Assembly (NCBI GenBank): GCA_002371625.1
Contig: DFFV01000068.1
Span: forward strand, 6,143 to 53,715
From: Ruminococcus sp. UBA3767
GTDB lineage: Bacteria > Bacillota > Clostridia > Oscillospirales > Ruminococcaceae
DNA length: 47,573 nt
Direction of reading: 5' to 3'
Under the pieces are notes generated by a model, which did not search any database, was not told the DNA's origin, and saw only the letters and a list, made by a program, of their open reading frames with translations. Positions 3,343-29,275 of this stretch are shown here, piece by piece. Made by a program: the position numbers and the translations under genes. How positions within the stretch are numbered: the stretch's first letter is position 1; each line of letters begins with the position of its first letter.

Positions 3343-4494
3343 TTATCCATTTTCATTCTGCGTTTCCTGCTCGGTCTCCTCGTCGGAAGATTCCTCGTTT
3401 TCTGTTTCGCTTTGCTCTTCCTGCTCGGTCTCCTCGCCGGAAGATTCTTCGTCTTCTGTTTCGGTTTGTTTTTCCTGCTCGGTCTCCTCATCGGGAGTTT
3501 CTTCGTCTTCTGTTTCGCTTTGCTCTTCCCGCTGAGTCTCCTCGTCGGAGGTTTCCTCGCTTTCCGTTTCGGTTTGTTCTTCCCGCTGAGTCTCTTCGTC
3601 GGAAGATCCCTCGTTGTCTGTTTCGCTTTGTTCCTCCTGCTCGGTCTCCTCATCGGGAGTTTTATTTATCTCGGTGTCGTCTTGCTCGGTAGTTACCTGA
3701 GTGTTCTCGGTATCATCCTTCTCGGTAAGCGTGGTTTTTTCTTCTGTTACGGCAGTGGTGCTTTCTGTCGCTGTGTCGGCAGGAGCGGAAGGCTGCTGAG
3801 TCGTCTGCGAAGCGCTGCTGTCTGATGAAGCTGTGCTGCCTGACGAGTTTGATTTACTGCTGCCCGATGACGAGCTCGATTTTTTGCTGGCCGATGAAGA
3901 TGATGACGATGATGAGGACGACTTTGTTTTGCTCTTTTTGGAGTTTTTCCTGCTCACGCTGCTGCCCGAGCTGCTCTGTCCGCCCGAGGCGGAGGGCTTC
4001 TTGGAAGCCCCCGTTGTTGAGTCGCTGCTGCTGTCGGTTGAAGACTTGCTGCTGTCGGAGGAGGACTTTTTCTTCCTGCCCTTTGAGCTGCCCTTTGAAC
4101 TGCCGGACGAACTGTCGGAGCTGCTCCTGCTCTTTTTTGAGCCTGACTTTTTCTCGGAGCTGCTGTCAGAGCTTTCCGAAGAAGTGCTGTCCTTGTCGGA
4201 GCTGCTGTCGGTGCTGCTTTTCGTCTTCTTTTTGGAAGACTTTTCAGAGCTGCTGTCGGAAGCCGTATCCGAGCTTTCTCCGCTTTGCGAGCTGTCCTTT
4301 TTGTGCTTTGAGCTTTCGCTGCTCTCGCTGTTCTCGCTGTCTTCACTGCTGCTGTCCGTTTCGCTTTGCTGCGCCGAGTAGGAGCTTTCCTGCTCAGCCT
4401 GTGAAATGCTGCTGTCCTTTGAGCCTGCACAGCCCGTTGCCATGAGGCACAGCGCCATTATTGCAATAAGCGCCGAGTACTTTTTGTTTTTCAT
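3343..4494 (-). CDS. serine-rich lipoprotein with C-terminal Glu/Thr tandem repeats
   Basis: 383 residues. The N-terminus is a lipoprotein signal ending in lipobox M-A-T-G-C. Residues about 25-230 are almost entirely Ser with Lys, Asp and Glu, including a run of ten serines, and should be unstructured. The last ~102 residues are about 5.7 copies of an 18-residue acidic repeat of the type EETEQEEQSETENEESSD, coded by 54-base units at 3346-3651. No catalytic domain is visible. Such proteins usually act as flexible stalks or glycosylated surface spacers, which is an inference here. The low complexity produces long spurious open frames on both strands. A possible -10 (TACAAT on the minus strand, 4526-4531, with TGT before it) lies upstream, but no good -35 box is seen. 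Confidence 0.8.
   Translation of the reverse strand: MKNKKYSALIAIMALCLMATGCAGSKDSSISQAEQESSYSAQQSETDSSSEDSENSESSESSKHKKDSSQSGESSDTASDSSSEKSSKKKTKSSTDSSSDKDSTSSESSDSSSEKKSGSKKSRSSSDSSSGSSKGSSKGRKKKSSSDSSKSSTDSSSDSTTGASKKPSASGGQSSSGSSVSRKNSKKSKTKSSSSSSSSSSASKKSSSSSGSSKSNSSGSTASSDSSASQTTQQPSAPADTATESTTAVTEEKTTLTEKDDTENTQVTTEQDDTEINKTPDEETEQEEQSETDNEGSSDEETQREEQTETESEETSDEETQREEQSETEDEETPDEETEQEKQTETEDEESSGEETEQEEQSETENEESSDEETEQETQNENG
3346..3651 (-). repeat. 54-base tandem repeat inside the serine-rich lipoprotein gene
   Basis: About 5.7 imperfect copies of a 54-base unit encode 18 residues each, with the constant core D-E-E-T and the frame kept throughout. Differences are mostly conservative (Q/R, S/T, D/N). 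Confidence 0.8.
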
Positions 4495-5368: not shown

Positions 5369-5397
5369 TTGACATTTATGCGCTTTGAGTGTATAAT
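5369..5397 (+). promoter_or_regulatory. consensus sigma-A promoter of the phosphatase-kinase-ABC operon
   Basis: TTGACA (5369-5374) and TATAAT (5392-5397), spacer 17: a perfect match to consensus. Because the -10 overlaps the open frame that begins at 5389, translation must start further down, at the GTG at 5437. Confidence 0.85.
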
Positions 5398-5436
5398 TAT
5401 TCTGGGTATGTATTAATGTATACGGAGGTGCTGCTC

Positions 5437-6153
5437 GTGAGCTGGATATATAACGCATATTCCGATATCGGCGACAGGGAGAAAAACGAGGACTGCTGTG
5501 ATGTAAGGCTCGTGGAGGATTCGCTGTTTGCGGTGCTTGCCGATGGAATGGGCGGCTTTCGTGGAGGAGAGATAGCCTCGGCGCTCGTTATCAGCACGTT
5601 TGAGGAAATGCTTGCTCACGGCAGGGCGCAGGAGCTGGATCAGGTGCTGAAAACGGCTAACGAAAAAATACTTGAACGCCAGCAGGAGCTGGGCTTTAAA
5701 ATGAAAACTACCGCAGCTGCGGTGTGCATAACCGACGACTCGGCGGTGACAGCCCACGTTGGCGACAGCAGAGTCTACGCATTCAGCAGAGGGCAGCTGG
5801 TTTTCAGAACGACCGACCACAGCGCTGCGCAGATGTGCGTTGACATGGGCGAGATAACCGAGGAGGGCATAAGGGAGCACCCCGACCGATGTGTGCTGAC
5901 ACGTTCGCTCGGCTCGGGGGAAGATATCAAGGTAGATGTGCATAAGCTTGAAAAGGGCAGCTTTGACAGCTTGCTGATATGCTCCGACGGTTTCTGGGGA
6001 AATGTTTACGAGCAGGAGATGTGCGATGCGCTCGCACAGGCACAGGCTCCGCTTGAATGGATAGAAAAAATGCTTGAAAAACGCAGACAAAGAACGAAAG
6101 ACGACAACGACAACAATACCGCCGTTGCGATAATGTATGGCAGGGAGGGATAG
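5437..6153 (+). CDS. PP2C-family Ser/Thr protein phosphatase
   Basis: 238 residues with a GTG start, chosen because GGAGG lies at 5424-5428 and the promoter -10 excludes earlier starts. It is a cytosolic metal-dependent phosphatase that removes phosphate from Ser/Thr residues. The PP2C motifs appear in order: R-E-K-N-E-D (residues 14-19), D-G-M-G-G (36-40), G-D-S-R (109-112), C-S-D-G (182-185) and D-N-x-N-N-T (225-228), which supply the metal-binding aspartates. It is a single-domain enzyme like bacterial PrpC/Stp. The stop is two bases before the kinase start, so the two are almost surely co-translated. By family precedent it should reverse the action of the neighbouring kinase on that kinase and on the FHA-ABC protein. 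Confidence 0.92.
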   Translation: MSWIYNAYSDIGDREKNEDCCDVRLVEDSLFAVLADGMGGFRGGEIASALVISTFEEMLAHGRAQELDQVLKTANEKILERQQELGFKMKTTAAAVCITDDSAVTAHVGDSRVYAFSRGQLVFRTTDHSAAQMCVDMGEITEEGIREHPDRCVLTRSLGSGEDIKVDVHKLEKGSFDSLLICSDGFWGNVYEQEMCDALAQAQAPLEWIEKMLEKRRQRTKDDNDNNTAVAIMYGREG

Positions 6154-6155
6154 CT

Positions 6156-9008
6156 TTGCTGTGTCCATACTGTTTGAATGAAATACAGCAGACTCAGGGC
6201 TTTTGCAGTAAATGCGGCAAAGAGCTTGAGGTCAGTGTGCCTGCACACAGGCTGATGCCGGGAACGCTGCTTTGCTCAAGGTACCTTGTCGGCGTGGCAA
6301 AGGGCGAAGGCGGATTTGGCATAACTTATGTCGGAAAGGATACCAGGCTTGACAGGCTGGTTGCGATAAAGGAGTATTTCCCTGCGGGCATAGTCAACCG
6401 CAACGGAGCTGCTTCGCCGAGCATCACCGAGGCAACAAGAACGAGCGAGCATGAGGCTTTCCTTAAAGGCAGAGAAAGATTTCTCAACGAAGCAAAAACG
6501 CTTGCAAGGTTTTCGGGCGAACCGGGAATAGTGCATATACTCGACTTTTTTGAAGAAAACAACACCGCATATATCGTAATGGAATATCTGGACGGAGTGA
6601 GCCTTTCGGATTTTCTCAAGCAGAACGGAACGATGAGTGCGGACGATGCTGTCACGATACTGATGCCCGTAATGCTCTCGCTGAAAAAAATACATAAGCA
6701 GGGACTTATCCACAGAGATATAAGCCCCTCCAACATAATGGTGCTCAAAAACAGCGTAAAGCTGATAGATTTCGGCGCTGCAAGGCACGCCGCAGGCAGA
6801 GCGGGAAAAAGCATATCGCTTATGCTCAAGCCGGGCTATGCCCCCGAGGAGCAGTACAGGAGCAGGGGTGAGCAGGGACCGTGGACGGACGTTTATGCAC
6901 TTTGCGCTACACTTTATAAATGCATCACAGGTGTTACACCCGAGGAGGCAAATGACAGGCTCCACAGCGATGAGCTGAAAAAGCCCTCGGAGCTGGGTGC
7001 ATCGGTAGATCCGAAATTTGAGGCTGCGCTGATGAAGGGCCTTAACATAATGCAGCAGGACAGATATCAGAGCGTTGATGATCTTTTGTCGGATATAACG
7101 GGCTATTCGGCAAACGGGCCTGCAAACACTGCGCCGGCCGCAAAAAGTGAGCCTGTACAGATGGATGATGACGAAAAAACAGTTGCATCAACAGGTTCTG
7201 CCTCGGCGGCAGCAGCCGATGACAGCGTTACACAGTATGCACCAAGGCAGCAGGAGCAGGCGCAGCAGGCTTACAGAGCACCCGTTCAGCCTGCCGTGCA
7301 GAACAATTATCCTGCACCGTATCAGCCGCAAATGCCGTCGTCATCAAACGACGTTGCAGCGCAGGTCGCAAAAAGGCTGCGCCAGCACAAGCGTAAAAAA
7401 GTAATGCTCGGACTGCTGGTTGCGGCGATAGTGATAGTTGTTGCGCTGGTGATAACTTTGCTGGTTTTAAGGGCAAAGGACAGCGAGGAAGCAAGCAGCA
7501 AGCAGGCAAGCACGTCACAGGACAGCGGAAAGATCACCAAAAGGACAGTAACGGGAAATAACGGCTACCGCAGCTTCTATAATGAGCCTGTCACCGTTGA
7601 CTCGATAAAGGAAATAAAGGATTCACCCGATGTAAGAAGCGTGTACATCAGCAAGTGCGAGGTAACGCAGGGTGCGATAGACGAGCTTGCGGAAATGGGT
7701 AATACCATTGAATATCTGAGCATTGAGGAAAGTGCGGGATTTGAAGATATTGCGCCGCTTTCCAAGCTGAGCAAGCTGCACAGCCTTACGCTCAGAGGCT
7801 GCGGACTTAAAAACGATCATATCGGCAAATTTGATATGAGCAAGCTGCCCTTGCTTACAAGCATCGACTTTTCGGGCAACCCTGATCTGAGCGATATTGA
7901 TTTTATAAAGGACAGCGCTAACAGGCTGTATTCACTGAAAATATCACTTACTGCGGTAAAGGATATATCCCTGCTTTCGGATTTCAAAAGGCTAAGCACA
8001 CTTTATGCACAGCAGTGCGGGATAAGCGATATCTCCGCTCTGAAGGACAGCAGGATAAGCTATCTGAAGCTGAGCAATAACGAGATAAGCGATATATCTG
8101 CGCTCAAAGGCAACAAGTCGGTAAAGCAGCTGGATATAGCGGATAACAAGGTAACCGATCTCTCGGCGCTGGAGGACAGCTCGGAGATAACAGAACTCAA
8201 TGTCAGCCGCAATAAGCTGTCAAGCCTGAGCGGACTTGAAAAGCTCATAAGGATCAAAAAGCTGGAATGTGCAGGCAACAGCATTTCAAGCCTTGACGGC
8301 ATAATCAACTGCACGGTGCTGGCTTACGTTAACATAAGCTCAAATAAGATAAGCGATATATCGGTGCTTTCAAAGAGCAGCGGTGAGCTGCAGGCGGTGT
8401 TCATGGACGAGAACAACGTCAGCGATCTTTCGCCGCTGAGCAGTGCAAAGAAGCTCAAATGCATCAGCTTCAATAAGAATAAAGTATCCGATATATCAAA
8501 GCTCAGCGAGTGCACCAAGCTGATAGCTCTCTCGGGCGATGAGAACAGCATAAGCACGCTGGACGGCATAACGAATATGACCGACCTTAAATGCATCAGC
8601 TTTGCGCATAACTCTATCTCGGATATGTCCCCGATAGAAAGGCTCTCCTCAAAAATGAGCGGAAAGCTCTATGTGCTGGATCTGAGCAGCAACAAGATAC
8701 AAAAGCTCGCTCTTGCAAGCGGAAAGACTTACGAGAACGTGCTCGTTTATAACGATCCTCTCACAACGCTTGACAACGTCAAGCAGATAAAGGGACTGAC
8801 GATCGCAGTATCGTATTTTGAGGGCATAAAGCTGAGTGAGCTGAAAGAGGGCTATCTGAAGCTGACGATAGTAGACTGTCCGCTCGATAAGCAGATGGCT
8901 ATCGAAAAGGAAGTAGGAAGATACTTTGTTACATTCGCAACAGCTGATGAAAAGGAAAAGGATACAAAGGAAAAGAAGGAAACAGTGTTCAAACAGATAA
9001 ATGTCTGA
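6156..9008 (+). CDS. membrane Ser/Thr protein kinase with N-terminal zinc ribbon and extracellular LRR domain
   Basis: 950 residues with a TTG start preceded by GGGAGGG at 6143-6149. Order of parts: zinc ribbon with C3, C6, C17 and C20; Hanks-type kinase domain about 42-315 with Gly-rich loop G-E-G-G-F-G (50-55), V-A-I-K (Lys72), H-R-D (186-188) and D-F-G (205-207); a Gln/Pro/Ala-rich linker with acidic Thr sites (about 325-410); one membrane helix (about 416-438); and an ectodomain of internalin-like LRRs of about 22 residues (about 500-880, repeated I-S-D-I-S-x-L). A cytosolic kinase joined to an outside sensor is the plain reading. It shares an operon with the phosphatase and the FHA-ABC protein, which are its likely antagonist and target. 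Bacterial Hanks kinases of clostridia more often carry PASTA repeats, so the LRR sensor is uncommon. Confidence 0.92.
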   Translation: MLCPYCLNEIQQTQGFCSKCGKELEVSVPAHRLMPGTLLCSRYLVGVAKGEGGFGITYVGKDTRLDRLVAIKEYFPAGIVNRNGAASPSITEATRTSEHEAFLKGRERFLNEAKTLARFSGEPGIVHILDFFEENNTAYIVMEYLDGVSLSDFLKQNGTMSADDAVTILMPVMLSLKKIHKQGLIHRDISPSNIMVLKNSVKLIDFGAARHAAGRAGKSISLMLKPGYAPEEQYRSRGEQGPWTDVYALCATLYKCITGVTPEEANDRLHSDELKKPSELGASVDPKFEAALMKGLNIMQQDRYQSVDDLLSDITGYSANGPANTAPAAKSEPVQMDDDEKTVASTGSASAAAADDSVTQYAPRQQEQAQQAYRAPVQPAVQNNYPAPYQPQMPSSSNDVAAQVAKRLRQHKRKKVMLGLLVAAIVIVVALVITLLVLRAKDSEEASSKQASTSQDSGKITKRTVTGNNGYRSFYNEPVTVDSIKEIKDSPDVRSVYISKCEVTQGAIDELAEMGNTIEYLSIEESAGFEDIAPLSKLSKLHSLTLRGCGLKNDHIGKFDMSKLPLLTSIDFSGNPDLSDIDFIKDSANRLYSLKISLTAVKDISLLSDFKRLSTLYAQQCGISDISALKDSRISYLKLSNNEISDISALKGNKSVKQLDIADNKVTDLSALEDSSEITELNVSRNKLSSLSGLEKLIRIKKLECAGNSISSLDGIINCTVLAYVNISSNKISDISVLSKSSGELQAVFMDENNVSDLSPLSSAKKLKCISFNKNKVSDISKLSECTKLIALSGDENSISTLDGITNMTDLKCISFAHNSISDMSPIERLSSKMSGKLYVLDLSSNKIQKLALASGKTYENVLVYNDPLTTLDNVKQIKGLTIAVSYFEGIKLSELKEGYLKLTIVDCPLDKQMAIEKEVGRYFVTFATADEKEKDTKEKKETVFKQINV

Positions 9009-9027
9009 ATGAAAAAGGAGCGTAGCT

Positions 9028-10506
9028 ATGGCAAACACGGTGTACTACAATGAGCAGTATAAGGGACCGCAGCTCGTTGTGGTGTGTATGGGCAGCATGA
9101 GAGCGGTGACTCTGAGCGGAGAGATGACGATGGGAAGATGCACCAAAGGCAATGTGGTGGATATTGACCTTGATGCTAACTTCGTTTCACGTTCTCACGG
9201 AAAGTTTATATGCTCGGATCAGGGCTGCTTTTATATGGATACAGGCAGCATGAACGGAACTTACTATAATGGCTCGCCCATCTATCCCAACGTTCCGCAA
9301 AGGCTGCTCAACGGCGATGTGCTGCATATATACAACGGCACGGCTGCAACTGCAAATGACGTAGTTACGATCGTTTTCATGTTCGATCACCCCGATGTGT
9401 TCACGGGAGAAACCATAATGCTCACCGATCAGACGGACAGCGTGAATATAGGCAGGAGCTTCCAGAAAGATGTTATGGTGGCTTCTCAGGCGGTTTCGGA
9501 AGATCATGCAGGCTTCATCAGGCAGCAGGGCGGCTGGGCAATACTCGATCACGGCAGCGTGAACGGTGTTTTCCTCAACAATATGCGGATAACTGCGCCG
9601 CTTTATATCAAAACGGGAGACTGTGTGAGGATAGTTAATACCAACTTCATTTTCCTTGGCGACAGGATAGTTTATCAGAATTACCGTGCGTCCTCCTCGC
9701 AGGGCTGCACACGGCTGGAGATACATATACAGCAAAGAACGGTGAGAACGCTGTTTAATGTCCACGCACTGCTCAGGGATATAAACGTCACATTCCACGG
9801 CGGCGAGATGATACTTATCCTCGGCGGCTCGGGTGCAGGAAAAACTACGCTTGTGAATGCGATACTTGGCTATGAGAAAGCCGACGGCAAGATAACCTAT
9901 AACGGAACGGACCTTTATACCGATGAAACAGGCTTGCAGCAGAAGATCAGCTTTGTTCCGCAGTCGGATCTGATGAGAGGGTTTGACAGCGTTTATTATA
10001 CCCTCAGGAACGCTGCGCAGATGAAGCTGCCCGACAGCCTTTCAGACGAGGAGATAGAGAAAAAGGTAATAGAGGCGCTCAAGCTGTTCAATCTCGATAA
10101 GGTAGCCGACAGCCTTGTTAAAAAGCTCAGCGGCGGTGAGCGCAAAAGGCTCAGCGTTGCGATAGAATATATCGCCGATCCCGAGGTGTTCTTCCTTGAT
10201 GAGCCTGACAGCGGTATCGACGGACACTATACGATACAGCTCATGGCTATACTGCGCAGGATAGCAGACCAGGGCAAGATAATAGTTATAATCTCGCACG
10301 GCGCAAACAGGATAGCAAAGAACTTTGACAAGGTGCTCGTGCTTGCAAAAAGCAAGCAGGATCAGTGCGGTTATGTCGCTTATTACGGCGATGTTGAAGG
10401 CTCGTACAGCTTTTTTGATACGGATAACCTTGAAGCGATAGTCGGAAAGGTGAATGACGAGCCCGATCTGTATATTCAGAAATTCAGAAGCAGTTACGGC
10501 AGGTGA
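9028..10506 (+). CDS. tandem FHA-domain ABC transporter ATPase (Rv1747-like)
   Basis: 492 residues; AAGGAG precedes the ATG. Two forkhead-associated domains come first: FHA1 (about 15-115) with G-R at 36-37, S-R-S-H at 54-57 and N-G at 76-77; FHA2 (about 125-212) with I-G-R-S at 141-144, S-E-D-H at 157-160 and V-N-G at 178-180. An ABCG-type nucleotide-binding domain follows: Walker A G-G-S-G-A-G-K-T (266-273), signature L-S-G-G-E (367-371), Walker B with D-E-P-D-S (391-395). FHA domains bind phosphothreonine, so activity should depend on the kinase upstream. Mycobacterial Rv1747 has the same FHA-FHA-ABC order but carries its membrane part on the same chain and is phosphorylated by PknF. Here the membrane part is the next gene. 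The transported substrate is unknown. Confidence 0.92.
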   Translation: MANTVYYNEQYKGPQLVVVCMGSMRAVTLSGEMTMGRCTKGNVVDIDLDANFVSRSHGKFICSDQGCFYMDTGSMNGTYYNGSPIYPNVPQRLLNGDVLHIYNGTAATANDVVTIVFMFDHPDVFTGETIMLTDQTDSVNIGRSFQKDVMVASQAVSEDHAGFIRQQGGWAILDHGSVNGVFLNNMRITAPLYIKTGDCVRIVNTNFIFLGDRIVYQNYRASSSQGCTRLEIHIQQRTVRTLFNVHALLRDINVTFHGGEMILILGGSGAGKTTLVNAILGYEKADGKITYNGTDLYTDETGLQQKISFVPQSDLMRGFDSVYYTLRNAAQMKLPDSLSDEEIEKKVIEALKLFNLDKVADSLVKKLSGGERKRLSVAIEYIADPEVFFLDEPDSGIDGHYTIQLMAILRRIADQGKIIVIISHGANRIAKNFDKVLVLAKSKQDQCGYVAYYGDVEGSYSFFDTDNLEAIVGKVNDEPDLYIQKFRSSYGR

Positions 10507-10511
10507 AAGTT

Positions 10512-11309
10512 ATGCAGTCATCAAGAGGCGAACAGATAAAGGTCTATTTCGGCAAATGCTGGAGAATATTCAGGAACGAGAACGGCTGGAAGGTGTTCCT
10601 CAGCTCAGCGATAATTACGTTCCTTATCAGCTGCGTAACGGGCGCAGATATGTTCAAGGGCTACCGTGCCACAAGAAACGGCGCATTTGCGCTGGTGTGC
10701 GCTTGTATATGGATAGGCATATTCAACTCTATCCAGTCGGTTTGCAAGGAAAGGGATATCATCAAGCGTGAGCACCGTTCGGGGCTGAGCATTTTTTCTT
10801 ACCTCAACGCACACGCACTTTTTGAGCTGATACAGTGTCTGCTCGAAGCGGTCATAGTTACGGTAATGACGCTGCTTTTCAATTCGGCAAATGTACCCTC
10901 GAGCGGCCCGATAATGCCTGTTGCGGTCGAGCTGACGGTGACGTTTTTCGTTATAATCTTCTCGTCGGATATGCTGGGGCTTATGATCTCCTGCATAGTT
11001 AAAACACCGCAGACGGCGATGACGGTAATGCCGTTCGTGCTGATACTTCAGCTGATAATGTCGGGAATGATATTCGAGCTTAAAGGCGCTACCGAGAAGA
11101 TATCATACCTGATGATCTCCAAATGGGGACTCAACGCAATATGCATAAGCGCAAATGTAAACGCAATGGCAGGCACCTCGGGCAATGAGGACTACGAATT
11201 CAAGGCTATGAACCTGCTTAAAATGTGGGGCATACCGATAGGCTACGCATTTGTGTATATACTTCTGGGAATAGCTTTCCTGTCGCTCGTTGACAGGGAT
11301 AAGAGATAA
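10512..11309 (+). CDS. ABC-2 type permease partner of the FHA-ABC ATPase
   Basis: 265 residues. About six hydrophobic segments are visible, beginning with V-F-L-S-S-A-I-I-T-F-L-I-S and ending with a helix before the C-terminal V-D-R-D-K-R. This is the size and topology of the ABC-2/ABCG membrane domain. I prefer the ATG at 10512 to the GTG at 10503, because AGGTGA (10501-10506) sits five bases before the ATG; with the GTG the gene would overlap the ATPase stop by four bases. Either way the two genes are coupled. The pair should form a half-transporter that dimerises, probably exporting a lipid, polymer or peptide. No substrate-binding protein is encoded nearby, which fits export rather than import. 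Confidence 0.85.
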   Translation: MQSSRGEQIKVYFGKCWRIFRNENGWKVFLSSAIITFLISCVTGADMFKGYRATRNGAFALVCACIWIGIFNSIQSVCKERDIIKREHRSGLSIFSYLNAHALFELIQCLLEAVIVTVMTLLFNSANVPSSGPIMPVAVELTVTFFVIIFSSDMLGLMISCIVKTPQTAMTVMPFVLILQLIMSGMIFELKGATEKISYLMISKWGLNAICISANVNAMAGTSGNEDYEFKAMNLLKMWGIPIGYAFVYILLGIAFLSLVDRDKR

Positions 11310-11351
11310 AGGATAAACTGCCGGACATTGCACGAAAGGGGAGTGGGACGG

Positions 11352-12005
11352 TTGAACAGAAGGAGAAATATCAGAAGGACCATATCGTTCATGCTTGTCG
11401 TGCTCATGCTGGCAGGGCTTGTCTACTGGCTGGTCTTCACCGGCGGAAGACAGCGTGCCGTTGCAGGACTTGGAGAGCCTGTTCAGACACAGACAACAGG
11501 CGGAACGAGAAAGAAAGTCGATGGCTTCACCGTTGATATAACCTATAAATACGAGTATGAGATAGAAGCGCTCGTGGTGCATACCAAGCACTATGACGGC
11601 TCCTCGCTCGCAGATGAATTAGCTCCCGTTGACCTTGCACTTGCGTGGGGAACGGTGGCTGAACATAACGAGGAGATAGATTTTAACTGGGAACAGCGTG
11701 GCAGATGGTATTACTGGTCTGTCAACGATGCTTCCGATCTTGCTCCGGTAGGCGGAACTGCAGGCGTGAACAGGCAGTCCGCAAACAACCATATCCTGCC
11801 CGCATTTTCAAGAGTGAAAGAAACGGTGCTGGATATAAAAACAGGCGACAGGATAAAGCTCAAAGGCTACCTTGTGAATATAAATGCACTCAAGTCAAAC
11901 GGCGAATCGTTCACCTGGGTGTCAAGTACCACAAGAGAGGATACGGGCGACGGTGCGTGTGAAGTGTTCTATGTGACTCAGGCGGAGATAATAGACCGTG
12001 CTTAA
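11352..12005 (+). CDS. membrane-anchored protein of unknown function, paralogue 1
   Basis: 217 residues with a TTG start at 11352, chosen for AGGGGAG eight bases upstream; the frame is open from 11328. Basic residues (N-R-R-R-N-I-R-R) precede one membrane helix (F-M-L-V-V-L-M-L-A-G), so the ~180-residue C-terminal domain should be outside. That domain aligns with the next gene over its full length: V-D-G-F-x-x-D-I-T, A-P-V-D-x-A-L-x-W-G, D-F-N-W-E-Q, N-N-H, G-Y-L-V-N and D-T-G-x-G-A-C-E. I recognise no named domain; from memory similar motifs occur in uncharacterised proteobacterial proteins, which I cannot verify. The position after the permease suggests a role in what is exported or in the sensing system. 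Confidence 0.75.
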   Translation: MNRRRNIRRTISFMLVVLMLAGLVYWLVFTGGRQRAVAGLGEPVQTQTTGGTRKKVDGFTVDITYKYEYEIEALVVHTKHYDGSSLADELAPVDLALAWGTVAEHNEEIDFNWEQRGRWYYWSVNDASDLAPVGGTAGVNRQSANNHILPAFSRVKETVLDIKTGDRIKLKGYLVNINALKSNGESFTWVSSTTREDTGDGACEVFYVTQAEIIDRA

Positions 12006-12019
12006 AAGGGGCGATCTCG

Positions 12020-12679
12020 ATGAAAAAAAGCAGGCTCGAGACAAGAGATAAACTTATAATATTTCTGGTCATCGTGGGTGCGGTCTTTCTTGCACTGTTC
12101 ATTGCGCACAGCATCTATATGAGCGGAACACGCAGGGGCATAGCAGGCATAAGAGAACCGCTGCAGGAAACGGTCAACGGCGGAGGTATGCACAGGAACG
12201 CAGACGGCTTTGAAACGGATATAACCTTTAAATGCTATTACGATATCGAGGCGCTCGTGCTCAGTACACATGATTATAACGGAAGCGAGTTGAGCGACAA
12301 ATTTGCACCTGTCGATGCCGCACTGGGCTGGGGCAAGGTGGCACAGTATAACGATATAATAGATTTCAACTGGGAGCAGTCGGGCAGATTCTGCCGGTGC
12401 GATCCGCTCTCTGCGGCAGATGTAAAGCTGCTGGGCAGCATCGAATATGTGCAGGAGCACTTTTCAAATAATCACCTTATCCCTGCCGAAAAGGATGTTG
12501 AAAAGAAAATAAAGAAAATACGCAAGGGTGACCATATACGCATAAGAGGCTACCTTGTGAATGTTGACGGCAGCAGCGAAGATGCCTCTTTCCACTGGCA
12601 TTCAAGCACTTCACGCAGCGATACCGGGAACGGTGCCTGCGAGATAATCTATGTGACCAATGTCGACTGGATAGAATGA
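12020..12679 (+). CDS. membrane-anchored protein of unknown function, paralogue 2
   Basis: 219 residues; AAGGGG lies nine bases before the ATG, and 14 bases separate it from paralogue 1. One N-terminal membrane helix (L-I-I-F-L-V-I-V-G-A-V-F-L-A-L-F) places the domain outside the cell. It shares with paralogue 1 the D-F-N-W-E-Q, N-N-H-L-I-P-A, G-Y-L-V-N-V and D-T-G-N-G-A-C-E motifs, but the middle differs: the segment after the W-E-Q motif has two close cysteines (F-C-R-C-D) where paralogue 1 has G-R-W-Y-Y-W. The two probably arose by tandem duplication and may work as a hetero-oligomer. It is the last gene of the operon; no terminator is visible before the next promoter. Confidence 0.75.
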   Translation: MKKSRLETRDKLIIFLVIVGAVFLALFIAHSIYMSGTRRGIAGIREPLQETVNGGGMHRNADGFETDITFKCYYDIEALVLSTHDYNGSELSDKFAPVDAALGWGKVAQYNDIIDFNWEQSGRFCRCDPLSAADVKLLGSIEYVQEHFSNNHLIPAEKDVEKKIKKIRKGDHIRIRGYLVNVDGSSEDASFHWHSSTSRSDTGNGACEIIYVTNVDWIE

Positions 12680-12706
12680 TCGGGCGAGGGGTCTGCGGAA
12701 ACGTGC

Positions 12707-12735
12707 TTGATTTTTGGGGAAGAATGTGTTATAAT
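12707..12735 (+). promoter_or_regulatory. promoter of the STAS/anti-sigma-kinase genes
   Basis: TTGATT (12707-12712) and TATAAT (12730-12735), spacer 17, with TGT giving an extended -10. It makes the STAS gene independent of the upstream operon and argues for the start at 12814 instead of the long open frame from 12676. Confidence 0.8.
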
Positions 12736-12813
12736 ACAAATGTGATGATCCGCATACGAAATGTATGTAAATTAAGCTGTATATCAAATAATCAAACCGA
12801 AAGGAAGATGTTC

Positions 12814-13110
12814 ATGAAAGTCGATAAGAAAACAAACGGAAAGAAGCTGACAGTAGCTATCGAAGGCAGAGTTGATACAACGACTGCTCCTGAGCTGGAA
12901 AAGGAGATAAAAGGCTCTATTGAAAATATCAGCGATCTGGTGCTGGATTTTGAAAAGGTCGAGTATATATCTTCCGCAGGTCTGAGAGTGCTCCTTTCTA
13001 CACAGAAGATAATGAACAGACAGGGAGAAATGTCACTTATCAATGTAAGCAGCGATATTATGGAGATCCTTGATGTAACGGGCTTCTCCGATATTCTTAC
13101 TATAAAATAA
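12814..13110 (+). CDS. STAS-domain anti-anti-sigma factor (SpoIIAA/RsbV type)
   Basis: 98 residues, the usual size of a single STAS domain. Start at 12814, six bases after AAGGAAG. The family works by partner switching: the unphosphorylated protein binds the anti-sigma kinase and frees its target; phosphorylation of one serine reverses this. The phosphorylation loop reads Y-I-S-S-A-G-L-R-V-L (residues 51-60), and Ser54 aligns with the phosphoserine of RsbV. The next gene is the matching kinase. No sigma factor of the sigma-B/F group lies in the window, so the controlled target is not visible. The nearby PP2C phosphatase at 5437 could act on it, but it lacks the SpoIIE or RsbU regulatory parts usually paired with STAS proteins. 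Confidence 0.9.
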   Translation: MKVDKKTNGKKLTVAIEGRVDTTTAPELEKEIKGSIENISDLVLDFEKVEYISSAGLRVLLSTQKIMNRQGEMSLINVSSDIMEILDVTGFSDILTIK

Positions 13111-13165
13111 GAAGTCTTGGCAGATTCCGGCAGGGCGCTATGCCCGTGCAGAACAAGGGGGAAGC

Positions 13166-13576
13166 ATGAAAGAACTTGAGATCAGCGCTTTGAACGAGAA
13201 TACCACTCAGGTGCTCGCATTTGTTGATGAACAGCTCGAAGCGGTCGGGTGTCCCATGAAGATACAGATGCAGATAGATCTTGCGGTGGAAGAGATATTT
13301 GTAAATATCGCCAACTATGCATACGATCCGGATGTGGGACCTGCAACAGTGAGAGTCTCGATAAGCGAAAAGCCACAGATAGTGGATATAACATTTATAG
13401 ATCATGGCGTGCCCTACGATCCGCTTGCAAAAGAGGATCCCGATATCACCCTCAGCGCAGAGGAAAGAGAGATAGGCGGGCTTGGCATTTTCATGGTCAA
13501 AAAGAGTATGGATGACGTTAAGTATGAATACCGTGACGGGCATAATATCCTGACTCTTAAAAAAGGTCTTGAATAG
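13166..13576 (+). CDS. anti-sigma factor Ser/Thr kinase (SpoIIAB/RsbW-type HATPase)
   Basis: 136 residues; GGGGGAAG lies just before the ATG. It is a GHKL ATPase: N-box E-E-I-F-V-N-I-A-N-Y-A-Y (42-53), G1 box I-D-H-G-V-P-Y-D-P (78-86), and G2 box G-G-L-G-I-F-M-V-K (104-112). This family binds either a sigma factor (or another target) or the unphosphorylated STAS protein, and phosphorylates the latter on serine. Here it lies 55 bases after the STAS gene and should be its partner. It could equally regulate a non-sigma target, as several RsbW relatives do. Confidence 0.88.
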   Translation: MKELEISALNENTTQVLAFVDEQLEAVGCPMKIQMQIDLAVEEIFVNIANYAYDPDVGPATVRVSISEKPQIVDITFIDHGVPYDPLAKEDPDITLSAEEREIGGLGIFMVKKSMDDVKYEYRDGHNILTLKKGLE

Positions 13577-13606
13577 TAAAGGACCGGATGATACGGAGCT
13601 GGGATA

Positions 13607-14281
13607 ATGGCGTTTACCGTCAAAGCACTTGAATTTCTTGATGAGAATTATGTGCGAAATGACAGAGAATGGTTCAAAGAACATAAACAGCAGTATAACG
13701 AGCTGGTGATAAAACCGTTTTGTGAGCTTCTTGAAAAGCTCGCTCCGCTGATGGAGAAAACGGACAGCGAGCTTGTTTGTACGCCCAAATGTATCTCACG
13801 GATCTACCGTGATGCAAGATATGTCAAGGGCGGTGCGATATTCAGGGATTCGGTGTGGTGTTCTATCAGACATAAACGCAGCGCATACGAGCTGATACCG
13901 GAGTTTTATTTCTATCTCTCGGTGAACGGCTACGGCTATGGCTGCGGATATTATAAAACTACAACAGCAGCAATGGAGCAGCTCAGAAAAATGGCATTTG
14001 AGGGCGATAAGGTGTTTACAGCTGCAAGGCGTGCTTTTGAAAAGCAGGACAGCTTTTACCTCGCAGGAGAGATGTATAAGAAAGATCACTTTCCGCAGGC
14101 GGATAAAAAGCTGTGGGACTGGGTCAACAGAAAAAGCATCTGCCTGTGCCGTGACTGCACCGATGCAAAGCTGCTGTTCAGCGATGAGCTTTTTGAAACC
14201 GTCGAGCGGGATTTTGAAAGCATAGTTCCCATTTATCGGCTTTTTAACGAAATGGAAAAAAGAGCTGCACAAAAGGATTGA
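13607..14281 (+). CDS. DUF2461-family protein
   Basis: 224 residues, matching the length of the DUF2461 (TIGR02453) family. The family marks visible are the early L-x-F-L-x-x-N-x-x-x-x-x-R-E-W-F segment (residues 9-23), S-R-I-Y-R-D-A-R-Y (64-72) and a conserved W-C-S-I-R-H patch. The biochemical function of the family is unknown. GGAGCTGG lies before the ATG. It follows the anti-sigma kinase by 30 bases and may be read from the same promoter, but nothing in the sequence ties it to partner switching. Confidence 0.8.
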   Translation: MAFTVKALEFLDENYVRNDREWFKEHKQQYNELVIKPFCELLEKLAPLMEKTDSELVCTPKCISRIYRDARYVKGGAIFRDSVWCSIRHKRSAYELIPEFYFYLSVNGYGYGCGYYKTTTAAMEQLRKMAFEGDKVFTAARRAFEKQDSFYLAGEMYKKDHFPQADKKLWDWVNRKSICLCRDCTDAKLLFSDELFETVERDFESIVPIYRLFNEMEKRAAQKD

Positions 14282-14317
14282 TACAGCCCGTTTTATTCAG
14301 TAACAGTTTCACGCATA

Positions 14318-14376
14318 TCACCTGCTGCCCGCTGTTTGCGACGGCACTGCAAAAGCGGCAAGAAAAAAACAGGTGA
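14318..14376. other. nested inverted repeat upstream of veg
   Basis: TCACCTG (14318-14324) pairs with CAGGTGA (14370-14376), and inside it CCGCTGTTTGC can pair with GCAAAAGCGG with one bulge. No T-run follows, so it does not look like a terminator. It could be a structured leader of the veg gene. I see no good promoter in 14282-14442. Confidence 0.4.
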
Positions 14377-14442
14377 GGGCGTGAGTTTTCAGGTCATATA
14401 CTTCTGCCGTGATGTGTTGTACCTTTTTAAAAGGAGGCAGAG

Positions 14443-14697
14443 ATGAGTCCGCTTGAACTGATAAGGGAAAAGGTCACAAGACTGCGTGACAGTGATCCGC
14501 ATATCCATGTAAACGTTTCTATCACACGCCCTAAGGTGAAGATAGACAATGAGCCTGCCGAGATACTCGGCGTTTATCCGAATGTGTTCAGGCTCAGGGA
14601 TATGAGCAGTAAGGACGGCAAGTCCTATACTATAAAGTACTCCGATATCCTTACCGGGCAGATAGAGATAGTTGAGCTTGGCAAGCTGACAGGCTGA
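14443..14697 (+). CDS. veg: Veg-family protein
   Basis: 84 residues; AAAAGGAGG precedes the ATG. It matches the Veg (DUF1021) family of Firmicutes in size and in the block that runs V-x-x-x-R-P-K-V-x-x-x-x-x-x-x-E-I-L-G-x-Y-P-x-V-F (about 28-47), followed by a hydrophobic strand and S-Y-T-I-K-Y-S-D-I-L-T-G. In Bacillus subtilis Veg is a small, highly expressed protein linked to biofilm control. It ends in a strong terminator and is probably monocistronic, although read-through from the genes before it is possible. Confidence 0.8.
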   Translation: MSPLELIREKVTRLRDSDPHIHVNVSITRPKVKIDNEPAEILGVYPNVFRLRDMSSKDGKSYTIKYSDILTGQIEIVELGKLTG

Positions 14698-14709
14698 CAA
14701 CGATTGTAA

Positions 14710-14750
14710 CGGTACGCTTAGAAATTTATCTTAAGCGTACCGCTTTTTTT
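14710..14750 (+). terminator. terminator of veg
   Basis: CGGTACGCTTA (14710-14720) pairs with TAAGCGTACCG (14732-14742), followed by seven T residues. Confidence 0.92.
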
Positions 14751-14785
14751 GTGCAATTTTAAGTATAATTTTTTTTATTAAACTA

Positions 14786-14814
14786 TTGAAAAATGGTCAA
14801 CAATATGATATACT
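14786..14814 (+). promoter_or_regulatory. promoter of the 1475-residue surface protein
   Basis: TTGAAA (14786-14791) and TATACT (14809-14814), spacer 17, extended -10 TGA. The leader of about 60 bases holds a small GGTC-GTAA-GACC hairpin and a strong AAGGAGGAG site. Confidence 0.8.
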
Positions 14815-14880
14815 AACTGTGTATAGCGGTCGTAAGACCAAAATTGGTAAAGGGAAACAAATAAGGAGGAGAATAATTAA

Positions 14881-17800
14881 ATGAAAAAAAGGATAGTAGC
14901 AGCGGTAATGGCGCTGCTGATGGTCGCTTCCTCAATGCCTATGGCTGAGATGTCACAGCTGGTGCCTGATTTTGGTATCAGTGCATCTGCAGCAATGCAG
15001 TCAGGAACAGTTGAGGTCAACGGCTTCAAGATCAATTACACTGCAGGACAGACTGAAAAAAACAATGAGAACGAAACCAAGGAGTATCTCAAAATAACTG
15101 TTCCTCCTGCATACTTCATTTCAGATGATAACTATTCATCGATAACTATCGATACAACTGCGATCAAGAATGCGCTTACCAAGGCAGGCGTTACAGCAGG
15201 ACCCAACGGAGTTATCCTTGATTGCAGATTCGGCGCAAGCGGCAGCCCCGTACAAGGTTCACTTGCCCATGTCGAGATAAGCGGCTCGGATAAATTCGTT
15301 ACCAAGCTGGGCGATGGTATGTTCCAGGGATGTTCTGTGCTCCAGACAGTAACACTGAACAACACTGTAACCGAGATCGGTAAGAATGTGTTCGCAGGCT
15401 GTAAGTATTTCGTGGGAACACGTAATAATAACAATATAATGAAGCTGAACAACGTTACCGAGATAGCAGCAAGTGCGTTCCAGAACTGCACAGAGCTTAT
15501 GGGAGTGGATCTGTCAAACAATAAGCTGGACAGCATAGGCGACAGTGCGTTCAGCGGCTGCACAAAGATCAAAGAGATAAGCATACCTGCGGCTACAAGA
15601 TTCATGGGCAACAATGTGTTCACTAATGATTCTGCACTTGAAAAGGTCACCTTTGCAGCAAAGTCTGTACTCAAGAGAGTCGGCAACAGCGTGTTCCAGA
15701 GCTGCAGTGCACTCAGCAAGGTGTATTTCGGCACGGTGGAGAATACACTTCCTTCATCACTCGTAGAAGCAGGAACATCAATGTTCTCGGGATGTAAAAC
15801 TATCCAGACATTCAGGATCCCCAAAGGACTGAAGTATATATCCGATATGATGTTCCAGAATTGCTCGGCACTCAATAAGGTAACATTTGAGAATGGAAGC
15901 GTTTGTAAGTGGGTAGGAATGTCAGCATTTGAAAACTGTACATCACTTACGGATATTACAGTTGCAGACAGTGTTAAAGGACTCGGCGCAAGTTCATTCA
16001 AGGGCTGTAGGGTGCTCAAGAACTGCGTGCTGCCTGACGGACTTGTGTATCTTTCTACATACAAGAACAACAGCTACAGAAACTATGTTGATACACCGGA
16101 TCTTGATCCTTATGTCGGAATAGACAGATATGATAAGAGCGATGATAACAGCTATAACGGAGATACAGCCGGAGGAGCATTCGCAGGCTGTGAAGTTCTT
16201 TCTATCAGCACTAAGTCTAAAAAGGCTGCTTCAAACCAGATAATCATTCCAAGCAAGGTCATCTATATCCCTCAGCAGACATTCTATGCGTGCACGGGTA
16301 TCACATCTGTTGATATGAGCGGTGTAAAGGATATCGGTAAGGCTGCATTCCAGAGCTGCATCAAGCTGCCAAAGGTTACAGTTCCCGATGCTGTAAGGAT
16401 CATCAGACCAAGCGTGTTCCAGGGCTGCTCAGCACTCAAGAGCGTAGTTTATTCAAAGAACCTGCTGTGGATCTATACACAGGCGTTCAAGGATTGTAAG
16501 GTGCTTTCTCAGGCTACACCAAGCAATTCAACGGCTATGACCAATACTATCATAGTTCCGTCAACACTTAACGGTATAGATAAGGAAGCGTTCGCTAACT
16601 GCGTTACATTCAAGTACCTCAATATCCTCGGCGGAGATAACAACGATAAGTTCGCAACCGTTGGTGAAAAGGCATTCCAGGGCTGTACCTCACTTGAGGG
16701 CTCGACCACAAACGGTACCTCCAGCGAAGAGCTGAAGTTCCCTAAGGGCTATGTAGTTGTTCAGAATAATACATTTGAAAAGTGCAACAAACTCAAATCA
16801 GTCAAGTTCGCAGGAAATGTATCATCAGTCGGTGACTATGCGTTCGCAAACTGCTCGGCTCTTAATAAGGTTGTTATGAACCCGACAATAACACAGCTGG
16901 GCAACTACGCTTTCCAGAACTGCACGAGCCTCAAGGATCTGCCTGTTACCGCTGCCGGAAAAACAGCTGTTACTCAGCTCCAGGATATCAAGAACTATAC
17001 ATTCGATGGCTGTACAGCACTTTCGACTGTTGATATATCAGAAGCTAAGAAGATAACTGCTATCGGCAAAAATGCGTTCAGCAGATGTACAGGACTCAAA
17101 AAGGTAGTTCTCCCGTCAAACGGCGCTGTTGCAACTATCGACGATAACGCATTCCAGAACGATACGGCACTTGCACTTATAGCTCCTTCAAAAACAGCTA
17201 CAAAGAGCTCGCTGCCTAACAGCATTTCAAAGATCGGTTCAAACGCTTTTGCAAATACCGCACTTACCGAAATGACTATCGTTAAGCCAAAGAATGCAAG
17301 CGAGCATAACGACCTGGGCACAGGCGTGTTCTCAAATTGCACCAAGCTGACAACTGTCGATTTGTCAGGCTCGAACGCTATCGAGGTACCAAAGAGCATG
17401 TTTATGGCCGATAAGGTGCTTACAAGCATAAAGCTCCCGACAACAGTTGAAACTATCGCAGAGTCTGCATTTGACGGATGCGAAAAGCTCAGCACGATAA
17501 ACAGCACGACCAAGGGCGAGGCTAAACTGCCCGCAAGTGTAAAGACTATCGGCAACTATGCTTTCAAAAATAACCACTGCATCTCGAGAATGGTGATACC
17601 TGCCGCAACAGATAACATCAGCCTCAGCGCATGGGACTTCAACCTTACATATAAGCAGGAGGATCTTGACAGCGGAAAGTATAATCCTCTCAAGGAATTT
17701 GTTGTTGACAGCAAAAATGCTGATTATATGAGCAAAAACGGCGTTCTTTACAGCAAGGACGGCTCGCAGCTGTTTATTTATCCTGTAATGAAGGCCGGCA

Positions 17801-19308
17801 AGTCATTCACAGTTCCTTCATCGGTAACAAGCATCACTCAGAGCGCTTTCTCATCCAACAATATTCTTGAAACTGTAACAATGCCTACCAATCTGAAAAA
17901 CATAGATAAGTTTGCATTCAACAGATGCGAGAACCTCAAGTCGATCTCGTTCGGCAATAACAAGACCGTTCAGTTCGATACCAACGCTTTCAGCGGACTC
18001 AAGACCAATCCTAAGCTCGTGTTCTACGCAGCAAAGGGCTCAACAGCCGAAAGCTACGCTAATGCTAATTCAAATTACATCACATTCGTTGATAACAATA
18101 TGCAGGCTGTAAAGGTAGTTGTTAAGCAGGGATCAAGCATCTCAATGGCTAAAAACACCTCAACTGTTCTTGAAGCTCAGCCGCTTACAGCTAATGGCGA
18201 AGTAACGACCGACGTTCTCACATGGACTTCAAGCGACAGCACGATAGCTTCTGTTGATAACTCGGGTAGAGTCACTGCAAGAGGCAATGACGGCGTTGCA
18301 ACACTTACCGTAAAGACAGCTAACGGATATACCGCTACCGTAACGGTCGAGGTCGGCGATAAGATAACACGCTTTGCCGGTGCAGGCAGATATGATACAG
18401 CTGCCAAGATCTCTCAGGGCGCATTCAAGGAGAATACAAAGTATGTCGTTCTCGCTTACGGCATGAATTCAGCCGATGCACTCGCAGGCGTTTCACTTGC
18501 AAAGGCGCTTAACGCTCCTATCCTTCTTACAAATAAGGATGAGCTGCCTCAGGAAACTATAAACGAGATAAAGAGACTTAAAGCTACCAACGTTATCATA
18601 CTTGGCGGTACAGGCGCTATAAGTGAAAAGGTAGAAAGCGCTCTCAAAAACAAAGCAGGTATAGGTGCCGCTAATATTGAGCGTATCGCAGGATCATCAC
18701 GTTTCGGCACAGCAACAGCTGTTGCAAACAAGCTGGAAGAGCTGAACGAAGGCAAGCCAACCGAGGTATTCTTCGTTTACGCATATAACTATGCTGATGC
18801 ACTCTCCGTAAGTACAGTTGCAGCCGTAAAGGGCGCACCGATCATCTACCTTGCTACAAAAGGAAGCATCGATGCAGATACAGCTGCTTATCTCAAGTCA
18901 ATAAAGGGCAGCGTTAAAAAGGCTTATGTAGTAGGCGGAGAAGGCGTTATCAGCGACGCTATGATGAAGTCGGCAGCATCTGCTATCGGACTTTCAGCAG
19001 GAAGCACTGTTGAGAGAGTCGCAGGCGCTAACAGATATCTTACCTGTAAGGCAGTAAACGAGAAGTTTGCAGACGTTCTTTCGGGCACAGCTCTGTGCAT
19101 CGCAAAGGGACTTGACTTCCCTGATGCACTTGCAGGCGGCGTTTACGCAGCTATGAAGAACGCTCCTCTGTTCCTTGCAGACGGAAACAAACTCACTAAT
19201 GAACAGACCGAGTACCTCAAGAACAAGAAGGCAACCAAGTTCTATGTATTCGGCGGAACAGGTGCAGTTTCTGATACACTTGTGGCTGTCATAAGCAACG
19301 TCAGATAA
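14881..19308 (+). CDS. large BspA-like LRR surface protein with Ig-like domain and three cell-wall-binding-2 repeats
   Basis: 1475 residues, the largest gene here. A signal peptide (MKKRIVAAVMALLMVASS...) ends near residue 38. Residues about 60-1070 are a long array of BspA-type LRR_5 units with the repeated 'A-F-x-x-C-x-x-L' signature. Residues about 1075-1160 form a Big_2-type Ig-like domain (T-W-T-S-S-D-S-T-I-A-S-V-D). Residues about 1162-1475 hold three cell-wall-binding-2 repeats, which anchor proteins to the wall. Promoter and ribosome site are strong and codon use favours the forms seen in the MsmX gene, which suggests high expression. The likely role is an abundant surface adhesin or layer protein binding host or plant material; the ligand is unknown. 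It is monocistronic with its own terminator. Confidence 0.92.
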   Translation: MKKRIVAAVMALLMVASSMPMAEMSQLVPDFGISASAAMQSGTVEVNGFKINYTAGQTEKNNENETKEYLKITVPPAYFISDDNYSSITIDTTAIKNALTKAGVTAGPNGVILDCRFGASGSPVQGSLAHVEISGSDKFVTKLGDGMFQGCSVLQTVTLNNTVTEIGKNVFAGCKYFVGTRNNNNIMKLNNVTEIAASAFQNCTELMGVDLSNNKLDSIGDSAFSGCTKIKEISIPAATRFMGNNVFTNDSALEKVTFAAKSVLKRVGNSVFQSCSALSKVYFGTVENTLPSSLVEAGTSMFSGCKTIQTFRIPKGLKYISDMMFQNCSALNKVTFENGSVCKWVGMSAFENCTSLTDITVADSVKGLGASSFKGCRVLKNCVLPDGLVYLSTYKNNSYRNYVDTPDLDPYVGIDRYDKSDDNSYNGDTAGGAFAGCEVLSISTKSKKAASNQIIIPSKVIYIPQQTFYACTGITSVDMSGVKDIGKAAFQSCIKLPKVTVPDAVRIIRPSVFQGCSALKSVVYSKNLLWIYTQAFKDCKVLSQATPSNSTAMTNTIIVPSTLNGIDKEAFANCVTFKYLNILGGDNNDKFATVGEKAFQGCTSLEGSTTNGTSSEELKFPKGYVVVQNNTFEKCNKLKSVKFAGNVSSVGDYAFANCSALNKVVMNPTITQLGNYAFQNCTSLKDLPVTAAGKTAVTQLQDIKNYTFDGCTALSTVDISEAKKITAIGKNAFSRCTGLKKVVLPSNGAVATIDDNAFQNDTALALIAPSKTATKSSLPNSISKIGSNAFANTALTEMTIVKPKNASEHNDLGTGVFSNCTKLTTVDLSGSNAIEVPKSMFMADKVLTSIKLPTTVETIAESAFDGCEKLSTINSTTKGEAKLPASVKTIGNYAFKNNHCISRMVIPAATDNISLSAWDFNLTYKQEDLDSGKYNPLKEFVVDSKNADYMSKNGVLYSKDGSQLFIYPVMKAGKSFTVPSSVTSITQSAFSSNNILETVTMPTNLKNIDKFAFNRCENLKSISFGNNKTVQFDTNAFSGLKTNPKLVFYAAKGSTAESYANANSNYITFVDNNMQAVKVVVKQGSSISMAKNTSTVLEAQPLTANGEVTTDVLTWTSSDSTIASVDNSGRVTARGNDGVATLTVKTANGYTATVTVEVGDKITRFAGAGRYDTAAKISQGAFKENTKYVVLAYGMNSADALAGVSLAKALNAPILLTNKDELPQETINEIKRLKATNVIILGGTGAISEKVESALKNKAGIGAANIERIAGSSRFGTATAVANKLEELNEGKPTEVFFVYAYNYADALSVSTVAAVKGAPIIYLATKGSIDADTAAYLKSIKGSVKKAYVVGGEGVISDAMMKSAASAIGLSAGSTVERVAGANRYLTCKAVNEKFADVLSGTALCIAKGLDFPDALAGGVYAAMKNAPLFLADGNKLTNEQTEYLKNKKATKFYVFGGTGAVSDTLVAVISNVR

Positions 19309-29028: not shown

Positions 29029-29044
29029 TAATTTAATAGCATAA

Positions 29045-29275
29045 ATTGCTGAGAAGAGGAGAATAGCCTTGTTGTAAACGGCAAAGCGAGGGCGGATGGT
29101 GAGAGCGCCTGCGTGAGATAAGGTGAAGGACACCTCGGAGCGTCCCGTTTGATAAAAAAATCGGGCGTAGGGTCTGCGTTAAAGACTGATAGAGTGACCG
29201 AACGGCTTTTGCTGTTTGGTAATTAGGGTGGTATCACGATCACGGTCGTCCCTTTGGGGTGGCCGTGTTTTTTGT
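29045..29275 (+). promoter_or_regulatory. T-box riboswitch leader upstream of hisS
   Basis: The T-box core is GGGTGGTATCACG at 29226-29238, followed by a terminator stem. Upstream, GGCGGATGGTGAGAGC fits the conserved stem I apex. The likely specifier stretch GAAGGACACC contains GAC (Asp, 29129-29131) overlapping CAC (His, 29131-29133), and both hisS and aspS lie downstream. No convincing promoter is seen just before it, so it may be transcribed from the minD-mgsA unit. Confidence 0.85.
29241..29273 (+). terminator. T-box attenuator terminator before hisS
   Basis: CACGGtCgtCCC pairs with GGGgtGgCCGTG (29241-29267) and is followed by six T residues. It overlaps the region the antiterminator would use. 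Confidence 0.85.

Follow-up and report, generated by a model that had tools for sequence, protein, structure and literature searches.

A stretch of 47,573 nucleotides from Ruminococcus sp. UBA3767 (NCBI GenBank assembly GCA_002371625.1, contig DFFV01000068.1, positions 6,143 to 53,715 of the forward strand; here called the window) carries a six-gene cluster that may encode an ATP-binding cassette (ABC) exporter controlled by a receptor kinase. The genes run head to tail on the + strand and encode, in order, a PP2C phosphatase, a Ser/Thr kinase with a leucine-rich repeat (LRR) ectodomain, an ATPase in which two forkhead-associated (FHA) domains precede the ABC domain (FHA-FHA-ABC), a permease, and two ectodomain proteins, with successive intergenic gaps of 2, 19, −4, 18, and 14 bases. 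The features of the cluster, in window positions, are as follows:

5369..5397, +, sigma-70 type promoter, TTGACA-17-TATAAT (12/12 consensus match)
5437..6153, +, PP2C-type Ser/Thr phosphatase (PF13672, PP2C_2, 8e-14)
6156..9008, +, membrane Ser/Thr kinase, 950 amino acids (Pfam matches Pkinase, 3e-32, and LRR_4, 3e-28)
6162-6227, +, putative zinc ribbon at the N terminus of the kinase (weak match to Pfam, 7e-4, under the curated cutoff)
6303-6959, +, kinase domain (K72, HRD, N193, and DFG invariant in 9/9 same-genus sequences)
about 7086-7412, +, variable linker of the kinase
7179..7181, +, codon for T342 of the kinase (in DDDEKTV), a second and not fully conserved phosphosite candidate, read from the sequence
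7230..7232, +, codon for T359 of the kinase (in DDSVTQY), candidate site of autophosphorylation and FHA docking (invariant T, enriched motif class)
about 7413-7469, +, transmembrane helix of the kinase
about 7842-8705, +, LRR ectodomain of the kinase (matches to LRR families)
9028..10506, +, FHA-FHA-ABC ATPase (PF00498, FHA, 5e-24 in two stretches; PF00005, ABC_tran, 1e-25)
9127-9330, +, FHA1 of the ATPase
9433-9654, +, FHA2 of the ATPase
9772-10209, +, ABC domain of the ATPase
10503..11309, +, ABC-2 type permease, 268 amino acids, a separate gene (PF01061, ABC2_membrane, 5e-18)
11328..12005, +, ectodomain protein 1, facultative: N-terminal transmembrane anchor and extracellular OB-fold-like domain (family alignment)
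12020..12679, +, ectodomain protein 2, facultative paralogue of protein 1 (model and fold comparison)

All six open reading frames lie on the + strand where a preliminary description of this DNA had placed them. The perfect consensus promoter named there was also found at 5369, and a 12/12 TTGACA-17-TATAAT site was present near the PP2C start in 9/9 loci scanned, the window included; because the site recurs in this way, we consider the promoter more than a chance match. The scan as a whole returned 14 promoter-like sites, compared to 11.5 ± 3.7 in shuffles. Sites matching the consensus at 10 of 12 positions, identified by this match alone, lie at 11290 ahead of ectodomain gene 1 and at 12707 ahead of a downstream STAS gene; therefore, internal starts are possible. 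Mechanical calling begins the PP2C reading frame at 5389; a GTG at 5437 sits behind GGAGG and is the better start.

The FHA-FHA-ABC gene was present in 9 of 29 same-genus genomes (own included), and the other eight copies were 72 to 78% identical to that of the window. At each of these nine loci, the genes for PP2C, LRR kinase, FHA-FHA-ABC ATPase, and permease followed one another in this order on one strand, so that the conserved gene order anticipated in the preliminary description was borne out for the four core genes. The PP2C and kinase genes adjoined each other in all nine. Against NF033484 (Stp1), the window phosphatase scored 172.6 bits and did not reach the cutoff of 230. The kinase had been described as a kinase with an LRR ectodomain, which was correct as far as it went; that account missed the putative N-terminal zinc ribbon, whose cysteines (C3, C6, C17, and C20) are invariant in 9/9 kinases. 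The solved structure closest to the kinase domain was that of PpkA (5hnv; 2.6e-49). Identity as a PASTA Ser/Thr kinase (PknB/Stk1) was considered and rejected: the NCBI PASTA-kinase model NF033483 covered only the kinase part and gave 179.8 bits (cutoff 450), and the ectodomain matches LRR families.

The blocks GR, SxxH, and NG form the phosphothreonine (pThr)-binding pocket of FHA domains (PMC1262709). These blocks are present in both FHA domains of the ATPase in 9/9 orthologues. Among 70 wider homologues compared by position, the FHA1 pocket residues were likewise retained (G36 in 70, R37 in 70, S54 in 70, H57 in 68, and N76 in 61), as were those of FHA2 (G142 in 70, R143 in 67, S157 in 69, H160 in 67, and N179 in 65); judged on sequence, the pThr-binding residues whose absence would have told against the earlier account are thus conserved. 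Compared with PDB sequences, the FHA region matched two Rv1747 entries best (6cah, 1.1e-8; 6ccd, 2.3e-7), in each case through its second FHA domain, in line with the analogy to Rv1747 first drawn from the domain order. The stretch between the two FHA domains is short (median of 34 residues; range, 25 to 36 in the 70 proteins). An AlphaFold model of the ATPase was confident within domains (pLDDT 91.3; pTM 0.60), and the ATPase motifs are conserved in the orthologue alignment. The permease has about six hydrophobic segments by hydropathy and is 73 to 88% identical to its counterparts in the eight relatives. TIGR00955 was the best NCBIfam match for ATPase and permease alike, under its cutoff, and Foldseek rows included ABCG structures. 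By its domains (ABC2_membrane together with an ABCG-like ATPase), the pair is of the ABCG/ABC-2 exporter type, with export itself predicted.

Beyond these nine loci, nine other same-genus genomes (L046 to L054) carry a related ATPase whose alignment is confined to the ATPase part and whose gene adjoins that for a permease; in L046, the ATPase showed no FHA domain in a Pfam run and lies after an adenosine deaminase gene. Genome G020 holds two further, divergent clusters ordered kinase, FHA-FHA-ABC, permease, PP2C, one of which has a glyoxalase-family gene between ATPase and permease. In a scan of the class at E ≤ 1e-30, 17 of 391 genomes matched FHA-FHA-ABC (own included), G235 and G367 over the ATPase only; in the order scan, a kinase match at E ≤ 1e-110 was found in 4 of 394 genomes (own included). 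In G829, which belongs to another family, a full-length LRR kinase (38% identical) is followed directly by FHA-FHA-ABC and permease (59%). Proteins that fuse FHA-FHA-ABC and permease are present elsewhere in the class. The ATPase tree placed split, LRR-linked, and FHA-less rows on one branch (100/97) and the fused forms outside it, the finer order being unsure; the split permease noted earlier is therefore both correct here and a trait of a larger branch. As to whether such a system is undescribed in Clostridia, as had been suggested, no description was found in the literature searched, which was largely open access; the FHA-FHA-ABC genes themselves are not rare there, given the 17 of 391 class genomes.

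In the linker between the kinase domain and the membrane, the stretch from residue 311 to residue 404 is highly variable among the nine aligned kinases, with D356 and T359 as its sole invariant positions. The motif around T359 reads [ED]-D-x-[SV]-T-[RQ]-[FYC], with D-[DN] at the second place. An upstream acidic-K/R-T site resembling that of T342 occurs in 6/9 kinases, is looser in L039, and is missing from L038 and L041. In a wider set of LRR kinases (the best 120 of 973 matches, reduced to 104 dissimilar linkers), acidic-T-x-[YF] occurred 129 times across 73 linkers, compared to 11.1 ± 3.2 in 200 shuffles that kept composition. The serine counterpart was not enriched in the same 104 linkers (13 versus 12.4 in shuffles). 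FHA domains recognize pThr, not phosphoserine, and the restriction of the pattern to threonine therefore fits an FHA partner. Under a slightly wider motif definition, 49 of the 104 linkers had at least two sites, spaced by a median of 14. Among 25 related kinases of the class genomes without an LRR match, taken as a control, the motif was found in one linker, that of L220 in genome G274, which has a split-type FHA-FHA-ABC gene on another contig. This 467-amino-acid kinase (L220, 7303-8706) has three near-identical DPGETVYQ/DPGETIYQ repeats in its linker. In the ATPase, both linkers combined held 2 acidic-T-x-[YF] sites over 70 proteins.

Linkage in the wider set was gauged by exact equality of longest-contig size between the listed kinase clusters and the listed FHA-FHA-ABC clusters, a stand-in for location on the same contig rather than a gene map. 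By this proxy, 20 of the 120 listed kinase clusters shared a size with an FHA-FHA-ABC cluster; when sizes were moved by 1 to 300 bases either way, the mean was 0.47 equalities and the maximum 4. The linker motif was carried by 18 of the 20 size-matched kinases. Unmatched kinases may have another longest contig or fall outside the matches listed.

Rv1747 of Mycobacterium tuberculosis shares an operon with pknF, is a substrate of PknF, and is positively modulated by the kinase; both of its FHA domains are needed for interaction with PknF in the yeast two-hybrid assay (PMC3908365). Its FHA I spans residues 29 to 92, and the FHA II construct spans residues 201 to 310 (PMC5549992). A fragment with both FHA domains and their disordered linker condenses on phosphorylation, which the phosphatase PstP reverses (PMC9312465). 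The Ruminococcus cluster resembles this system in several respects: a kinase gene adjoins FHA-FHA-ABC on the same strand (9/9 loci and G829), two FHA domains precede the ABC domain, the FHA sequences are akin (6cah and 6ccd), and ATPase and permease are ABCG-like. However, Rv1747 fuses ATPase and permease and joins its FHA domains by a disordered linker (PMC3908365, PMC9312465), whereas the Ruminococcus permease is separate, also in the eight relatives, and the corresponding stretch is short. The Ruminococcus operon in addition has a PP2C gene, an LRR ectodomain on the kinase, and candidate pThr sites on the kinase. Because both the fused permease and the long inter-FHA linker are lacking, we regard the Ruminococcus system as a variant, not a member, of the Rv1747 type. 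The fused proteins of other Clostridia (e.g., L055, L096, L099, and L100) have the same domains, several with kinases and PP2C nearby, but they are single polypeptides outside the 100/97 branch of split forms, and the L099 and L100 kinases have neither an LRR match nor the linker motif. PpkA-PppA-Fha of type VI secretion likewise combines a Ser/Thr kinase (PpkA having the nearest solved kinase domain), a PP2C, and an FHA protein; in Ruminococcus, by contrast, the FHA reader is fused to an ABC ATPase. In the PknB-FhaA pair, FhaA is not a transporter and PknB is a PASTA kinase; the window kinase is far below the PASTA-kinase cutoff (179.8 versus 450 bits). The pair provides a precedent for the docking step proposed below, the FHA protein being bound to the phosphorylated juxtamembrane region of the kinase (as cited in PMC12077195). 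The activation loop of a kinase, PknQ, is the binding site for an FHA protein in M. ulcerans (PMC4238996).

Given the precedents of Rv1747-PknF and PknB-FhaA, the candidate sites on the kinase, and the lack of a long linker in the ATPase, we propose that the kinase bears the phospho-tag. The LRR ectodomain would sense something outside the cell, and the active kinase would phosphorylate threonines of its own membrane-proximal linker, namely, T359 and probably T342 as well. Binding of these phosphothreonines by the tandem FHA domains of the ATPase would bring kinase and transporter together, and docking would switch the ATPase-permease dimer and so gate the exporter; the gating step and the sign of its effect are inferred. 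PP2C would strip the tag and reset the system, with the OB-fold-like ectodomain proteins as optional add-ons. That the cluster is a receptor-kinase-controlled ABC exporter, PknF-Rv1747-like but rearranged, with phosphorylation, docking, and gating as predicted steps, we judge about evenly poised between right and wrong. A bolder version, put forward tentatively as possible rather than probable, makes the kinase in effect a regulatory subunit: two autophosphorylated juxtamembrane threonines some 14 residues apart would clamp both FHA domains, so that an LRR receptor gates an exporter directly, with the tag on the kinase and not the transporter, in a design recurring in rumen and gut Clostridia. 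Little is understood of what Rv1747-type exporters carry and how they are controlled; the operon of this rumen Ruminococcus provides the sensor, kinase, phosphatase, phospho-reader, and pump on separate genes, and its kinase linker sites offer short, directly testable peptides. If the proposal is true, sensing of the outside would act on an ABC pump directly, with transcription bypassed, and one set of parts would come in two arrangements: the tag would sit on the transporter in mycobacteria and on the kinase in these Clostridia.

Several observations weigh against a kinase-borne tag read by the ATPase. FHA specificity usually lies at +3, and the linker enrichment is instead at +2 and at upstream acids. 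The motif is absent from the G829 kinase, although it stands directly beside FHA-FHA-ABC, from both kinases near the split gene in G450 (judged by eye), from kinases beside fused FHA-ABC genes (L099 and L100 included), and from 2 of the 20 size-matched kinases; the contig of the G829 cluster also lacks PP2C. Conversely, 57 of 86 unmatched nonredundant LRR kinases carry the motif too. The motif thus tracks LRR kinases no less closely than it tracks FHA linkage. These last kinases, having no visible link to FHA-ABC, are what would be expected if the linker sites served only activation or dimerization of the kinase, or recruited another FHA protein, while the FHA domains of the ATPase read pThr on a different partner. 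The StkP juxtamembrane domain of Streptococcus pneumoniae is phosphorylated, yet streptococci are without FHA domains (PMC12077195). Nevertheless, kinase and FHA-FHA-ABC genes adjoin in 9/9 loci and in G829, and equal longest-contig size links 20 of the 120 listed clusters, and we consider this explanation rather unlikely.

Alternatively, the system could operate strictly as Rv1747 does, with the kinase phosphorylating the transporter, FHA domains binding pThr on the same or a neighboring transporter to cause clustering, and the kinase linker sites being incidental. This would accord with the status of Rv1747 as a PknF substrate (PMC3908365), with the reversible condensation of its phosphorylated FHA-FHA fragment (PMC9312465), and with the shared domains and adjoining kinase in Ruminococcus; the short inter-FHA stretch and the 2 acidic-T-x-[YF] sites in the ATPase linkers of 70 proteins, a count covering this site type only, make it unlikely in our view. 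Finally, the nearest solved kinase domain and the renewed company of kinase, PP2C, and FHA protein would also suit a signaling hub like the PpkA-PppA-Fha pathway, in which the ATPase-permease pair would serve for sensing or as a scaffold and not mainly for export. Both proteins match ABCG-like transporter families, however, with conserved ATPase motifs, and type VI parts were not noticed among the mapped genes, although no search aimed at them was made. We regard such a hub as very improbable.

Ectodomain proteins 1 and 2 share 43% identity and are paralogues, each with a short cytoplasmic tail and one transmembrane helix; some relatives have a longer tail, partly containing a zinc ribbon. Neither window protein had a Pfam or NCBIfam match, and a 12-sequence profile of the family found no PDB sequence match at E ≤ 1. 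The family comprises at least 1124 proteins (7996 candidates scored), with strongly conserved extracellular motifs WG, W-x-x, NNHxxPA, GD, GYLV, and CE. The model of protein 2 is confident (pLDDT 95.1) and OB-fold-like, with no distinctive match in fold comparison. The pair had been taken for a conserved unit of the cluster, a view that did not survive comparison: two copies stand beside the permease in the window, one each in L036, L037, L041, and L042, three each in L040 and L043, and none in L038 and L039. Moreover, of the best 80 of 253 family loci, a copy could be mapped in 76, and in 6 of those 76 it lay within an FHA-ABC cluster. The family was found in 20 of 29 same-genus genomes, including G008 and G009, whose clusters hold no copy; Ruminococcus sp. 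FC2018 carries both cluster and family. The ectodomain proteins are therefore optional partners of the cluster and not part of its core. Family members also follow response regulator and histidine kinase genes (L066, L069, L070, L071, L073, L138, L152, L162, and L176; Pfam was applied to L066 alone). Strains AR67 and KH2T6 of Ruminococcus albus are among those with this arrangement, in which the same extracellular module stands beside a different signaling system.

Directly downstream of the cluster, at 12814-13576, lie STAS and HATPase_c_2 genes resembling those for anti-anti-sigma factors and anti-sigma kinases, which are also present in L036 and L037. Two large surface proteins, each combining BspA-type LRR_5 repeats with cell-wall-binding CWB2 domains, are encoded on either side of the cluster (142-2433 and 14881-19308), and a 383-amino-acid lipoprotein-like protein (3343-4494, −) consists mostly of Ser, Thr, Lys, and Glu runs with degenerate acidic repeats at its end. 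In 5/8 relatives, a lipoprotein-like protein with calcium-binding TSP3 repeats was found downstream of the cluster (L039, 13345-14652; L040, 5096-6445; L041, 6221-7357; L042, 236-1576; L043, 4294-5550; by Pfam in all but L042, where similarity was used); it was not seen in L036 to L038. In L055, which belongs to a different family within the order, genes for PP2C, three kinases, Amidase_3, and a fused FHA-FHA-ABC-permease form one run (7728-17854), which places an envelope enzyme (Amidase_3) near the transporter gene; two of its three kinases have DUF6273 and YARHG ectodomains. Elsewhere in the window, a T-box leader (29042-29256; RF00230, 110 bits) precedes a histidyl-tRNA synthetase gene, and a class II (D, K, N type) tRNA synthetase gene lies further downstream.

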